DNA from: Glycocaulis albus
GTDB lineage: Bacteria > Pseudomonadota > Alphaproteobacteria > Caulobacterales > Maricaulaceae
Length of the DNA stretch: 64,000 nt
Direction: 5' to 3'
NCBI RefSeq assembly: GCF_014639075.1
Contig: NZ_BMFS01000001.1
Span: forward strand, 372,001 to 436,000
This document shows positions 18,568 through 22,006 of this stretch, piece by piece. Positions within the stretch are counted from its first letter, which is position 1. Each line of letters begins with the position of its first letter. The notes beneath the pieces are model-generated. The model ran no database searches and was not told the origin of the DNA. It saw only the letters and a program-made list of their open reading frames with translations. The position numbers and the translations under genes are program-made.

Positions 18568-20037
18568 CTAGCTGCGGCCCGATGATTTCACTTTTAGCGT
18601 CAGCCCGTCCACCGAAACGACCTTCACACCGTCGCCCGGTTGCAGATCATCAGATGATACCGCCTGCCAGCGTTCGCCCTCGACCTGGACATGGCCTGCG
18701 CCATTGGCCCAGCTCAGCACCGTTCCGATGGCTCCGGTCAGGCCCTCGCGGCCGGTGACGATCCTGCGCGCCTGAGCGGCAAGGCCGTAACTGCCCGCCA
18801 GCAGAACCGAAATGCCCATCACGGCGCTCATCACCAGTACCAGCGGCCAGTCAATGCGCAGGCCCTCCACATCGGTATCCACCAGCATCAGCGCGCCAAT
18901 GGCAAACGCCACCACCCCGCCGAGTGCCAGCAATCCGTACGAAGCGACGAAAACCTCCGCTATCAGAAGGCCCAGCCCCAGCACGATCAGCGCCGCCCCG
19001 GCATAGTTCAGGGGCAGGGTGTTGAGGGCGTAGAGCCCGACAATAATACAGATCAGGCCCGCCACGAATGTGACCGGCTCCAGCCCGTTATAAAAGCTCA
19101 CCAGCAGGCCGATAAAGCCGAGATTGAGGACCAGAAACGCAATGTTGGGATCGGTAATGACGGTGAGTATCTGGGTGGGCAGGCTCATTTCCACGCGCTC
19201 GACGCTCGCGCCTTCCAGCGCCAGCGTCACTTCACTGCCATCGCCCAGCATGACGGTGCGTCCGCTGGCCACGGTTAGCAGCTCTGTTGTCGATGCGGCC
19301 ACGAAGTCGGCGGCATTCTGCTCTACCGCCTCGCTATAGGTCAGGCTCACCCCTTCGCGCACGGCGCGCTCGGCCCAGTCGCCATTGCGCCCGCGCAGCT
19401 CTGCCAAGGCGCGGATATAGGCCACCGAATCGTTGACCATCTTGTTGCGCATGGCTTCGTCATTGCCCGGTGCCTGCGGCGATGCGGGCGCGGTGCGCTC
19501 GCGCGCGGCGTCTTCCAGGACATTGCCGTTATCGCCAGCCTCTCCCCCCTCGTCACCCTCGTCAGGCGTTTGCGGCGGACTGCCCGGTGCGCCGCCCATG
19601 GTGACGGGTGTTGCCGCGCCCACCGTAGTGCCCGGTGCCATGGCCGCGACGTGGGCCGCATAGAGGATATACGCCCCGGCGCTGGTCGCGCGCGCGCCCG
19701 TCGGCGCGACATGGACGATCACCGGCACAGGAGAGGCGAGAATGGCATTATTGATGTCGCGCATCGCATCGACGAGGCCGCCGGGCGTATCCATCTCGAT
19801 GATGACGGCGTCTGCTTCTCCTGCCGCACGCTCGATCACGCGTACGACATGGCCTGCCCGCGCGGGCCCGATAGCGCCCTGAAGGCTGACGAGGTGAACC
19901 GTCGCGGCTGCGCTTTCAGACTGCCGTGCCAGCGCACCGGCAGCGAGCATCACAGCACCCAGCGCAATCAGGCCCGCGCAGAACAACCGCACAGGCGTCA
20001 TCAGCATTTTGGCAGAGTATCGTCGCGTCACGGACAT
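18568..20037 (-). CDS. NfeD family membrane-bound ClpP-class serine protease
   Basis: A 489-residue partner protease of the slipin. After an N-terminal hydrophobic segment (about 15-36) comes a ClpP-fold domain with the nucleophile region GARATSAGAYILYAAHVAAM and a candidate catalytic lysine in MRNKMVNDSVAYI. Between them lies an acidic low-complexity insert rich in Gly/Glu/Asp. Four to five membrane helices follow (about 290-420), then the C-terminal NfeD OB-fold (LTGAIGTVLSWANG, VKVVSVDGLTLKV). The start at 20037 lacks a clear Shine-Dalgarno; 20007 is an alternative. Confidence 0.9.
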   Translation of the reverse strand: MSVTRRYSAKMLMTPVRLFCAGLIALGAVMLAAGALARQSESAAATVHLVSLQGAIGPARAGHVVRVIERAAGEADAVIIEMDTPGGLVDAMRDINNAILASPVPVIVHVAPTGARATSAGAYILYAAHVAAMAPGTTVGAATPVTMGGAPGSPPQTPDEGDEGGEAGDNGNVLEDAARERTAPASPQAPGNDEAMRNKMVNDSVAYIRALAELRGRNGDWAERAVREGVSLTYSEAVEQNAADFVAASTTELLTVASGRTVMLGDGSEVTLALEGASVERVEMSLPTQILTVITDPNIAFLVLNLGFIGLLVSFYNGLEPVTFVAGLICIIVGLYALNTLPLNYAGAALIVLGLGLLIAEVFVASYGLLALGGVVAFAIGALMLVDTDVEGLRIDWPLVLVMSAVMGISVLLAGSYGLAAQARRIVTGREGLTGAIGTVLSWANGAGHVQVEGERWQAVSSDDLQPGDGVKVVSVDGLTLKVKSSGRS

Positions 20038-20225
20038 GGAGGGGTTCCGTCAGCTGAAGGCCTTACAGCAAACCTAACCCGGAAATGGCGAAAGCCCAAT
20101 GCGGCGATGGGGGAGAACAGCGCTTTTCGGGCTCCGCGGCAACCAAGCGTGTGATTTCCCCAGCGCCGATCAGCTCTTCCCCTGAAGGGCCATGGCTTCC
20201 TTCTCTGCGACGCACTCCCGCCAGC

Positions 20226-20254
20226 TTGAAACGCTCAAAATACTCAAAAGTTGA
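20226..20254. promoter_or_regulatory. Cluster of TTGA/TCAA half-sites upstream of the RHH-RAMA gene
   Basis: In an AT-rich patch of otherwise GC-rich DNA, TTGA (20226), TCAA (20235), TCAA (20244) and TTGA (20251) form two facing pairs. It lies 58 bp upstream of the SeqA-like gene and in the divergent region with nfeD. A ribbon-helix-helix autoregulatory site is a guess. The remainder of the 274-bp gap shows no gene. Confidence 0.25.
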
Positions 20255-20311
20255 AAAATGCGGCAGAGCTGGGATGATGTGGAGTAGTTTCGCAGCGGAA
20301 GGAGTCGTGCG

Positions 20312-20761
20312 ATGGCGGAGATGAAAACCATCGAGATAGATTTCGAGGTTCACCAGCGGATCGAGGCGGCGCGAAAGGGATTTGGTGAGACCCCAAATAC
20401 TGTGTTGCGCCGCTTGCTGGAAATTGACCGGCCTGGCCGGGCAACGCCGCCGCCTGGACCGACACAAGCCTTGGGGCGAAGCAAGCGCGAGCCCCGGCCG
20501 TGGTTCGGCAAGGGTGTGACGCTGCCGCATGGGACACTGGTGCGGATGGATTATAATGGACGGGTCCATTCCGGGCAGATTGACGATGGCGGCTGGCTGG
20601 TTGAAGGCAAGCGGTTCAAGAGCCCGTCCGGAGCGGCAAGCGGTATTGCGGTCACTGGGCGGGGGGACAAGACCCGGCTGGATGGATGGAAATACTGGTC
20701 GGTGAAATTGCCTGCGAGTGATGTATGGCACCACATCTCAACACTTCGCCGGGCAGGCTGA
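20312..20761 (+). CDS. SeqA-like ribbon-helix-helix + RAMA domain protein
   Basis: A 149-residue two-domain protein. Residues 4-39 (MKTIEIDFEVHQRIEAARKG and GETPNTVLRRLLEI) closely resemble the N-terminal oligomerisation/ribbon-helix-helix part of SeqA. A Pro/Arg-rich linker (about 40-65) leads to a C-terminal RAMA-type module (LPHGTLVRMDYNGRVHSGQI, then GGWLVEGKRFKSPSGAASGI, then RLDGWKYWSVKLP). RAMA domains are associated with DNA methylation enzymes and modified-DNA recognition. The GATC-binding domain of SeqA is absent. AAGGAG precedes the ATG. A role in sensing methylated DNA is inference. Confidence 0.78.
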   Translation: MAEMKTIEIDFEVHQRIEAARKGFGETPNTVLRRLLEIDRPGRATPPPGPTQALGRSKREPRPWFGKGVTLPHGTLVRMDYNGRVHSGQIDDGGWLVEGKRFKSPSGAASGIAVTGRGDKTRLDGWKYWSVKLPASDVWHHISTLRRAG

Positions 20762-20780
20762 GCGGACGCAGAAGGCACCC

Positions 20781-21371
20781 ATGAACCTCGAAGCCCGCTT
20801 TGCGCGCTGGGCGCGCGGTGGACAATCGCGCCTGGCCCTGTTTGCCGCCTCCTTCCTGGAGGCGACAATCCTGCCTGTACCCATAGAGCTATTGATGATC
20901 CCGGTCATGCTGGCTGACCGCGCCCGGCTCTGGCAGGCCGCCGCTGCGGTGCTGGCGGGGTGCCTGGCCGGAGTGGCGGCGATGTATCTGGTGGGCGTGA
21001 TCGCGTTCGAGACGGTTGGCGCACCGGTCATTACGGCGCTGGGGCTGGAGGCGCGCTACGAGGCCTTCCTGGGCTATGCCGAAGACAATGGCGTGATGGC
21101 GCTCCTGATCATCAATGTGACACCGATACCGCTCTTCGTTGCGGCTCTGGGTGCGGCGGTGTCCGGGCTCTCGCCGGTGACCGTTTTCGGCATTATCGCG
21201 CTCACGCGCGCGGCGCGCTATTTCGGCCTGGCGCTTCTGGTCTGGCTGTTCGGCACGCGCATACTTGCCATGCTTGAGAACCTGCGTGACCGTCCGCGAC
21301 TGCGGCTGGCGGTCTGGGCGGCGGGCATCGCGCTGGCGGCAGCCGCGCTGGTACTGCCGGTCATCGTATAA
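20781..21371 (+). CDS. YqaA/DedA-like membrane protein (VTT domain)
   Basis: A 196-residue inner-membrane protein of the SNARE-associated/VTT superfamily. It begins with FARWARGGQSRLALFAASFL, followed by EATILPVPIELLMIP, the YqaA-type signature with a re-entrant loop, and at least four more hydrophobic segments. Members act in membrane homeostasis or lipid movement. The start at 20781 has GAAGG upstream; the open frame extends 21 codons into the previous gene. It lies 19 bp after the RHH-RAMA gene on the same strand, so it may share its promoter. Confidence 0.82.
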   Translation: MNLEARFARWARGGQSRLALFAASFLEATILPVPIELLMIPVMLADRARLWQAAAAVLAGCLAGVAAMYLVGVIAFETVGAPVITALGLEARYEAFLGYAEDNGVMALLIINVTPIPLFVAALGAAVSGLSPVTVFGIIALTRAARYFGLALLVWLFGTRILAMLENLRDRPRLRLAVWAAGIALAAAALVLPVIV

Positions 21372-21384
21372 GGCGAACAGGAAA

Positions 21385-21459
21385 TGGTGCCGCTAGAGTG
21401 AATTGAACACTCGACCTCTCCCTTACCAAGGGAACGCTCTACCCCTGAGCTATAGCGGC
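21385..21459 (-). tRNA. tRNA-Thr (GGU anticodon)
   Basis: Cloverleaf on the minus strand: acceptor GCCGCTA pairing with TAGCGGC, anticodon loop TTGGTAA (GGT), T-loop TTCAATT, discriminator A and an encoded CCA. Length is 75 nt with CCA. Confidence 0.97.
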
Positions 21460-21578
21460 CTTCGGCGTATGGGGCGGACGCCTCGCGCCTGCCTTGCCGG
21501 AGCGGGGCGTATAGCCCAAGTTTGCGGCCGCGCCAAGGGCACGCTTGCGGTCGTTTGCAGGGGGAGCTCTTCTGGTTC

Positions 21579-21598
21579 CGCAGCCCATCGGGGCTGCG
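21579..21598. repeat. CGCAGCCC-N4-GGGCTGCG hairpin repeat, copy A
   Basis: Eight-base arms with an ATCG loop, followed by GTTCAGCG. A near copy with the same arms, four-base loop and similar flank (TGTTCCGCG) lies at 28411-28430. Both are intergenic. Confidence 0.6.
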
Positions 21599-21610
21599 TT
21601 GTTCAGCGGA

Positions 21611-21656
21611 CCCCCACCTGCGCGGGGGCAGGCAGTCGCGGGCGCGCGTTCGCGCT
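21611..21656. repeat. Composite intergenic repeat, copy B
   Basis: A CCCCC...GGGGG hairpin followed by the 19-mer GCGGGCGCGCGTTCGCGCT, exactly as found at 7057-7075. Confidence 0.5.
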
Positions 21657-21835
21657 TTTCAGGCCACAAAGCGGCCTGTTGCCTTTGAGTACAACTCACC
21701 ACGCGTTTCACCGGCGCAAGCCGGTGCCCAGCAATTTTCTGGATCCCGGCTTTCGCCGGGAAAACGAAACAGATGGAAGCCGACGCAGGGCAGTGCCCGC
21801 TTGACCGGCCCCCCTCTTGGCGGCACACCAGATCC

Positions 21836-22006
21836 ATGAGCAAAAAGTCCGACAGGGGCTCACGCCCGCCAGAAGAGTCCGACAGCCGTGAGGCGCGTCT
21901 GGCAGAGGCCTTGCGCGCCAATCTGCGCCGGCGCAAGGCAGCCGCCAGACCGGCGAAAGGCGGCGCTGAAAAAACGTCTGGCACAAAGCCCGCCGGTCAG
22001 GGCTAG
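21836..22006 (+). CDS. Small basic protein upstream of murA
   Basis: A 56-residue Arg/Lys-rich protein whose core REARLAEALRANLRRRKAAA resembles short proteins often found beside murA in alphaproteobacteria. The N-terminus is polar and Ser/Glu-rich and the C-terminus is a disordered Ala/Lys/Gly tail. No membrane segment. No strong Shine-Dalgarno is visible. Function unknown; the amphipathic basic helix could bind RNA or DNA. Confidence 0.6.
   Translation: MSKKSDRGSRPPEESDSREARLAEALRANLRRRKAAARPAKGGAEKTSGTKPAGQG

Follow-up and report, generated by a model that had tools for sequence, protein, structure and literature searches.

The gene studied here lies in a 64,000-nucleotide stretch of DNA (the window) and encodes a 149-aa protein that joins a SeqA-like ribbon-helix-helix head to a RAMA-type tail. 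The plus strand carries the coding frame at 20312-20761, and this frame is kept by homologues from unrelated bacteria. A plausible Shine-Dalgarno sequence sits just 5' of the open reading frame, and the gene is present as a single copy in its own genome. An antisense open reading frame (20063-20734) was considered and set aside as unsupported, both the homology and the family conservation being on the plus strand. The gene and its parts are as follows.

20251..20278, plus strand: weak sigma-70-like promoter match 5' of the gene (consensus match only, 9/12 positions)
20302..20306, plus strand: single GAGTC (GANTC, the CcrM target type), overlapping the likely Shine-Dalgarno sequence (motif count)
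20312..20761, plus strand: SeqA_N-RAMA fusion gene, 149 aa, ATG start (open reading frame, Pfam, homologues)
20321..20425, plus strand: SeqA-like ribbon-helix-helix domain, residues 4-38, with the acidic strand E8/D10 and R33/R34 (Pfam, PDB profile, conservation, Foldseek)
20435..20500, plus strand: variable, low-confidence linker, about residues 42-63 (pLDDT about 53-64 over residues 41-60, alignment gaps)
20501..20752, plus strand: RAMA/CcrM-C-terminal-like domain, about residues 64-147 (Pfam, alignment with the host CcrM by hhalign, conservation, AlphaFold model)
within 20501..20752, plus strand: RAMA-like domain residues of note S104, S106, D124, W126, W129 and R146 (conservation)

The N-terminal head resembles that of SeqA

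The original prediction likened the start of this protein to SeqA and proposed that the GATC-binding domain of SeqA had been replaced by a RAMA-type module, and both parts of this claim are borne out. SeqA_N (Pfam PF17206) matches residues 4-38 with E=4.5e-8 and 32.7 bits, above the curated cutoff of 23, and in a sequence search of the PDB the SeqA entries 1xrx and 3fmt are the only solved chains to match meaningfully (residues 4-46; E=0.0016 from the single sequence, 1.7e-5 from the family profile). The likeness covers the N-terminal 35 residues and includes the register of the start (MKTIE.D), an acidic ribbon strand and a conserved LRR.L helix. Beyond the head the two proteins differ: the hemimethylated-GATC-binding C-terminal domain of SeqA (PF03925) has no Pfam match in the 149 residues even at E<=10, a RAMA domain standing in its place, and the NCBIfam SeqA equivalog model reaches 20.2 bits against a cutoff of 185, covering residues 4-40 only.

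Within the ribbon strand, E8 is kept in 71/78 family members, D10 is invariant (78/78) and position 6 is T or S; the strand of E. coli SeqA has an acidic pattern that matches E8/D10. In regulators of the MetJ/Arc type, the DNA-facing ribbon positions are usually Arg/Lys or polar (PMC10853773), whereas the family carries T/S6, E8 and D10 there, E8 and D10 departing from that pattern; we assign these residues as outward-facing by analogy with the Arc pattern. Because the strand is acidic, as it is in SeqA, the head most likely pairs or oligomerises while the tail grips DNA, a likely division of labour as judged from the sequence.

The C-terminal tail resembles that of CcrM

RAMA (Pfam PF18755) matches residues 75-136 with E=3.9e-6 and 27.2 bits, which is under its curated cutoff of 35.2. 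A search of both halves with profile models therefore places the head above its threshold and leaves the tail below, although relatives pass: an actinobacterial/viral pair (L022 and L033) score 53.3 and 52.7 bits with the domain covered almost end to end, and another relative scores 37.3 bits. The high scores and almost complete coverage in this pair remove most of the doubt about the tail. RAMA is matched at E<=0.01 in 72 of the 78 aligned members, SeqA_N in 38. Alignment of the family tail to the tail of the genome's own CcrM by hhalign gave a probability of 94.4 (E=9.5e-8), the NCBIfam CcrM model is matched in two family members, and what appear from their frames of about 390 aa and RAMA-only coverage to be CcrM proteins surface as weak matches in genome scans that use the family profile.

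In CcrM, Ser315, His317, Asn330, Trp332 and Arg350 contact DNA phosphates or hold the domain together; the W332A mutant is inactive and S315A does not bind DNA (PMC6787082). The hhalign register places these residues at S104 (conserved in 57/78), S106 (76/78), D124 (54 N and 24 D), W126 (76/78) and R146 (67/78), respectively, so that a like residue is kept at 4 of the 5 positions, His317 being replaced by Ser. Besides this profile homology, the tail shares with the C-terminal RAMA domain of CcrM (PDB 6PBD) the NGWxYW core, with both Trp residues, and the LR phosphate contact, but the protein differs in having no methyltransferase domain (no N6_N4 match by Pfam in the 149 aa) and in carrying the putative dimerisation module instead. 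The RAMA domains of CcrM and of MPND contact the DNA phosphates or backbone independently of sequence and with no clear preference for 6mA (PMC9963953, PMC6787082), and in one study binding by MPND was unchanged by 6mA (PMC9963953). The Pfam models DUF2924 and DUF4357 also overlap the tail, in 31/78 and 26/78 members respectively, and appear in the NCBI product names of some plasmid copies, but these names describe the tail alone and leave the SeqA-like head outside their definition.

Structure prediction supports the whole more clearly than the isolated tail. The full-length single chain, modelled with AlphaFold2 from 78 sequences, has a pLDDT of 88.9, with values of about 95 or more across most of the C-terminal half, above 90 in most of the head and low in the linker. 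A Foldseek search of the PDB with this model returned the RAMA-DNA complex of MPND first and SeqA chains, the best matches for the N-terminal half, second to fourth, all with probability 1.00; the E-values are no better than 0.02-0.4, which halves this short would lead one to expect. The match to MPND (PDB 7ydw), a eukaryotic protein in which RAMA is fused to an MPN domain, is partial (TM 0.54 on the target, rmsd 5.5). When the C-terminal half was modelled alone (pLDDT 91), Foldseek retrieved no RAMA structure, of MPND or CcrM, from the PDB. The fold evidence for the tail is therefore mixed, and its assignment rests on the sequence profiles. A viral fold library gave no useful match.

The fusion belongs to a sporadic and mobile family

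We found about 100 homologues that share the order of SeqA-like head, linker and RAMA, the full architecture being present in about 95 of 104 distinct loci by profile coverage. Full-length relatives at 30-60% identity, found by tblastn and genome scans, occur in Alphaproteobacteria, other Pseudomonadota, Acidobacteriota, Chloroflexota, Nitrospirota, Myxococcota and others, some of the non-Proteobacteria assignments being metagenome bins that may be misbinned, as well as on plasmids (including those of Rhodococcus), in Rhizobium phage RHph_X2_26 and in IMG/VR contigs. Only three of 385 alphaproteobacterial genomes are positive for SeqA_N, and all three hits are members of this family. The family tree rests on too few alignment columns for the position of the window copy to be resolved; its sole well-supported group is a phage-rich clade. 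No description of a SeqA_N-RAMA fusion was found in the open-access literature, where the single paper to name both SeqA and the RAMA domain does not connect the two, and the family is apparently undescribed. It also departs from SeqA in its distribution: SeqA is a core gene and seqA is reported as confined to Dam-bearing Proteobacteria (PMC4285127), whereas the SeqA-RAMA family is sporadic and mobile and extends outside that limit.

The immediate surroundings of the window copy are themselves variable.

20115..21381, no strand: variable segment with the SeqA-RAMA and yqaA-like genes, absent from congener G029 (genome comparison)
20782..21371, plus strand: yqaA/DedA-like membrane protein gene (open reading frame, congener comparison)
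21385..21459, minus strand: tRNA-Thr (GGT), the 3' end of which borders the variable segment (tRNA search)

In G029, the positions equivalent to window 20114 and 21382 are joined with about 14 bp between them, and both the SeqA-RAMA gene and yqaA are missing; another genome, G014, keeps yqaA and lacks the SeqA-RAMA gene. The 3' end of a tRNA gene is a common side for integration; no att-like direct repeat was found flanking the segment at tRNA-Thr. A full-length copy is present in 0 of 98 other genomes of the host's family, 0 of 5 congeners included. A gain by the window copy is a simpler explanation than losses in the congeners, and is favoured because full-length copies are rare and sporadic across the class (about 10 of 385 alphaproteobacterial genomes). 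The architecture, the family and its horizontal mobility are established computationally.

The yqaA/DedA-like gene also varies among the congeners, being absent from G029, G049 and G059, and the region on this side of tRNA-Thr is thereby marked as variable. Between tRNA-Thr and murA (window about 21567-21780) lie dispersed repeats of 45-130 bp, an intergenic family that numbers dozens of copies in this genome and its congeners, at 71-98% identity.

Adenine methyltransferase genes lie near some copies

That the protein is linked to DNA modification, as had been proposed from the sequence, agrees with the neighbourhoods of its relatives, which adjoin adenine methyltransferases, among them phage Dam-like genes, a type II system and four type I systems. 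Genes with adenine-methyltransferase motifs make up 10 of 280 neighbours at most two genes away and 4 of 892 farther out (p=2e-4; p=0.002 without near-duplicates), a distance cut set after the data had been seen, with one- and three-gene cuts giving p=3e-4 to 0.007. All ten methyltransferase-motif proteins tested were confirmed by Pfam as N6_Mtase, Eco57I, D12 or N6_N4. In four loci (L023, L040, L048 and L096), which fall in two separate regions of the tree, a type I restriction operon (hsdM/hsdS) is placed head-to-head with the SeqA-RAMA gene at a spacing of 91-125 bp. Phage copies have Dam-like or N6_N4 methyltransferases as neighbours, or else terminase/portal genes close by: Dam-like genes adjoin the SeqA-RAMA gene in L019, L111 and L115 (co-directionally in the latter two), and an N6_N4 methyltransferase is adjacent and co-directional in L113. 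In L052 the gene is followed by a co-directional M.Eco57I-like enzyme and by what looks by eye like a phospholipase-D-type nuclease, and L041 appears by eye to be a SIR2-HerA defence locus.

These associations involve a minority of copies. A methyltransferase lies at most three genes away in only about 11 of 104 loci, and most copies are solitary, with unrelated genes around them. Over the family loci no single partner gene recurs except phage genes and methyltransferases, no toxin gene is a recurrent neighbour, and the promoter regions share no common inverted-repeat element.

The host has CcrM, and GANTC is depleted in the window

The host was predicted to use CcrM rather than Dam, and its genome fits this expectation: it encodes a CcrM with its own RAMA tail (G000:C6) and contains no Dam-type (D12) match. 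GANTC occurs 64 times in the window against 263 expected, a 4-fold depletion of the kind typical under CcrM. The GAGTC at 20302..20306 is the sole GANTC from 19432 to 21874. About 55 kb from the gene, at G000:C1 ~447300-450600 (L174, L177), lies a type IIG-like restriction-methyltransferase fusion of more than 1,000 aa with an NPPY motif; it and CcrM are possible writers of a mark in this host.

Upstream of the family genes, GANTC was observed 26 times against 21 expected from composition-matched dinucleotide shuffles, which is not significant. An apparent enrichment in a first control (p=0.015) was discarded as biased by poor start calls, GATC also being strongly depleted there, and as the "other" comparison group had wrongly held alphaproteobacteria.

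Proposed function and alternative explanations

Our preferred reading, held tentatively and at a little under even confidence, is that the protein is small and non-enzymatic, binds DNA as a dimer or oligomer, and belongs to a mobile family that works alongside adenine methylation. The SeqA-type head would pair subunits as in SeqA without itself reading DNA, and a flexible linker would connect it to a RAMA domain of the CcrM type, which would hold the DNA backbone, giving a dimer two grips. The family protein would, most likely, bind DNA depending on its methylation state; in phage and restriction-modification loci it may control or assist the adjoining methyltransferase genes, and in the host it would act as an acquired, solo copy, possibly on marks written by CcrM or the type IIG-like enzyme. 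These parts are not equally firm. We infer dimerisation and DNA binding; that the protein senses methylation is a conjecture whose chances we would put about level, and regulation of neighbouring methylation genes is likewise conjectural.

A less likely reading is that the protein binds or bridges DNA irrespective of sequence and modification, as a small nucleoid-like factor in which RAMA-bearing SeqA-type oligomers coat or bridge DNA, and that its association with methylation genes reflects mere shared residence in mobile elements and defence islands. The sequence-independent phosphate contacts of the CcrM and MPND RAMA domains (PMC6787082, PMC9963953) fit this, as do the many copies that have no methyltransferase neighbour and the recurrence of portal and terminase genes as neighbours as often as methyltransferases. 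However, the methyltransferases are concentrated nearest the gene and not spread evenly through islands, and the four head-to-head type I operons keep a narrow spacing.

That same arrangement of hsdM/hsdS, together with the co-directional M.Eco57I-like, N6_N4 and Dam-like genes, would also suit a controller or subunit for restriction-modification or phage methyltransferase genes, resembling a C protein and recognising its operator or partner irrespective of methylation. We consider this rather improbable, as many copies, that of the window included, have no such partner and a divergent gene upstream is in any case frequent (49 of 105 family loci). A classical ribbon-helix-helix repressor or antitoxin that lays its beta-ribbon on an operator, and in which RAMA plays an accessory part, draws on weak matches to VAPB_antitox or DUF7557 in a few members and is very unlikely given the acidic ribbon, which differs from DNA-binding ones (PMC10853773), and the lack of a recurrent toxin partner adjoining the gene.

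Least probable, and very unlikely, is a SeqA equivalent that captures GANTC in its hemimethylated form and sequesters it, at the origin or at promoters: the presence of CcrM, the missing Dam-type match, the rarity of GANTC and the single site at the gene's own ribosome-binding region speak for it, but the gene is accessory (0/98 relatives), the family reaches beyond CcrM lineages to other organisms and phages, and GANTC is not enriched upstream family-wide. The suggestion in the original prediction of a reader serving replication control fares no better as a general role in the CcrM lineage: a conserved role of this kind is unlikely because the gene is accessory, missing even from the congeners, and the family extends to phages, plasmids and phyla beyond Alphaproteobacteria.

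More speculatively, and in our judgement doubtful, the family may be one of mobile methylation readers that time or insulate the expression of phage and restriction methyltransferases, and possibly the source pool from which the SeqA of Gammaproteobacteria arose by a C-terminal swap. SeqA is usually treated as a specialty of Dam bacteria, and here its module is reused with another DNA-binding half in CcrM lineages, phages and plasmids. Through this family, mobile elements may be able to sense DNA methylation or to control it; if adenine methylation is indeed sensed, the family would fill the place of a class of bacterial 6mA reader that is so far missing outside SeqA, and phages and restriction systems would gain a way of reading their own marks. 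Whether RAMA senses 6mA is unsettled in the literature, and the fusion offers a minimal natural protein for asking this.

Related proteins with other arrangements

A same-family genome encodes a 256-aa protein (L003, 1492-2262, plus strand) that has a SeqA-like head, a RAMA-like middle and, as judged by eye, a winged-helix tail, and that has no Pfam match at 1e-3. L005 (1456-2304, plus strand) encodes a 282-aa protein that is unrelated apart from its SeqA_N-like head and has a repeated Ser/Pro-rich linker. RAMA also occurs in type IV modification-dependent nucleases, whose RAMA or winged-helix domains serve as readers, and RAMA-nuclease fusions have been published (PMC11037411); the SeqA-RAMA protein differs from these in having no nuclease domain. 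A putative nuclease of this sort, with a helicase/REase_MTES_1575 region, a GreA/GreB C-terminal domain and a RAMA tail, is encoded in L011 (1489-2868, minus strand), and its RAMA is close to that of the window protein, being of the same subtype and 53% identical.
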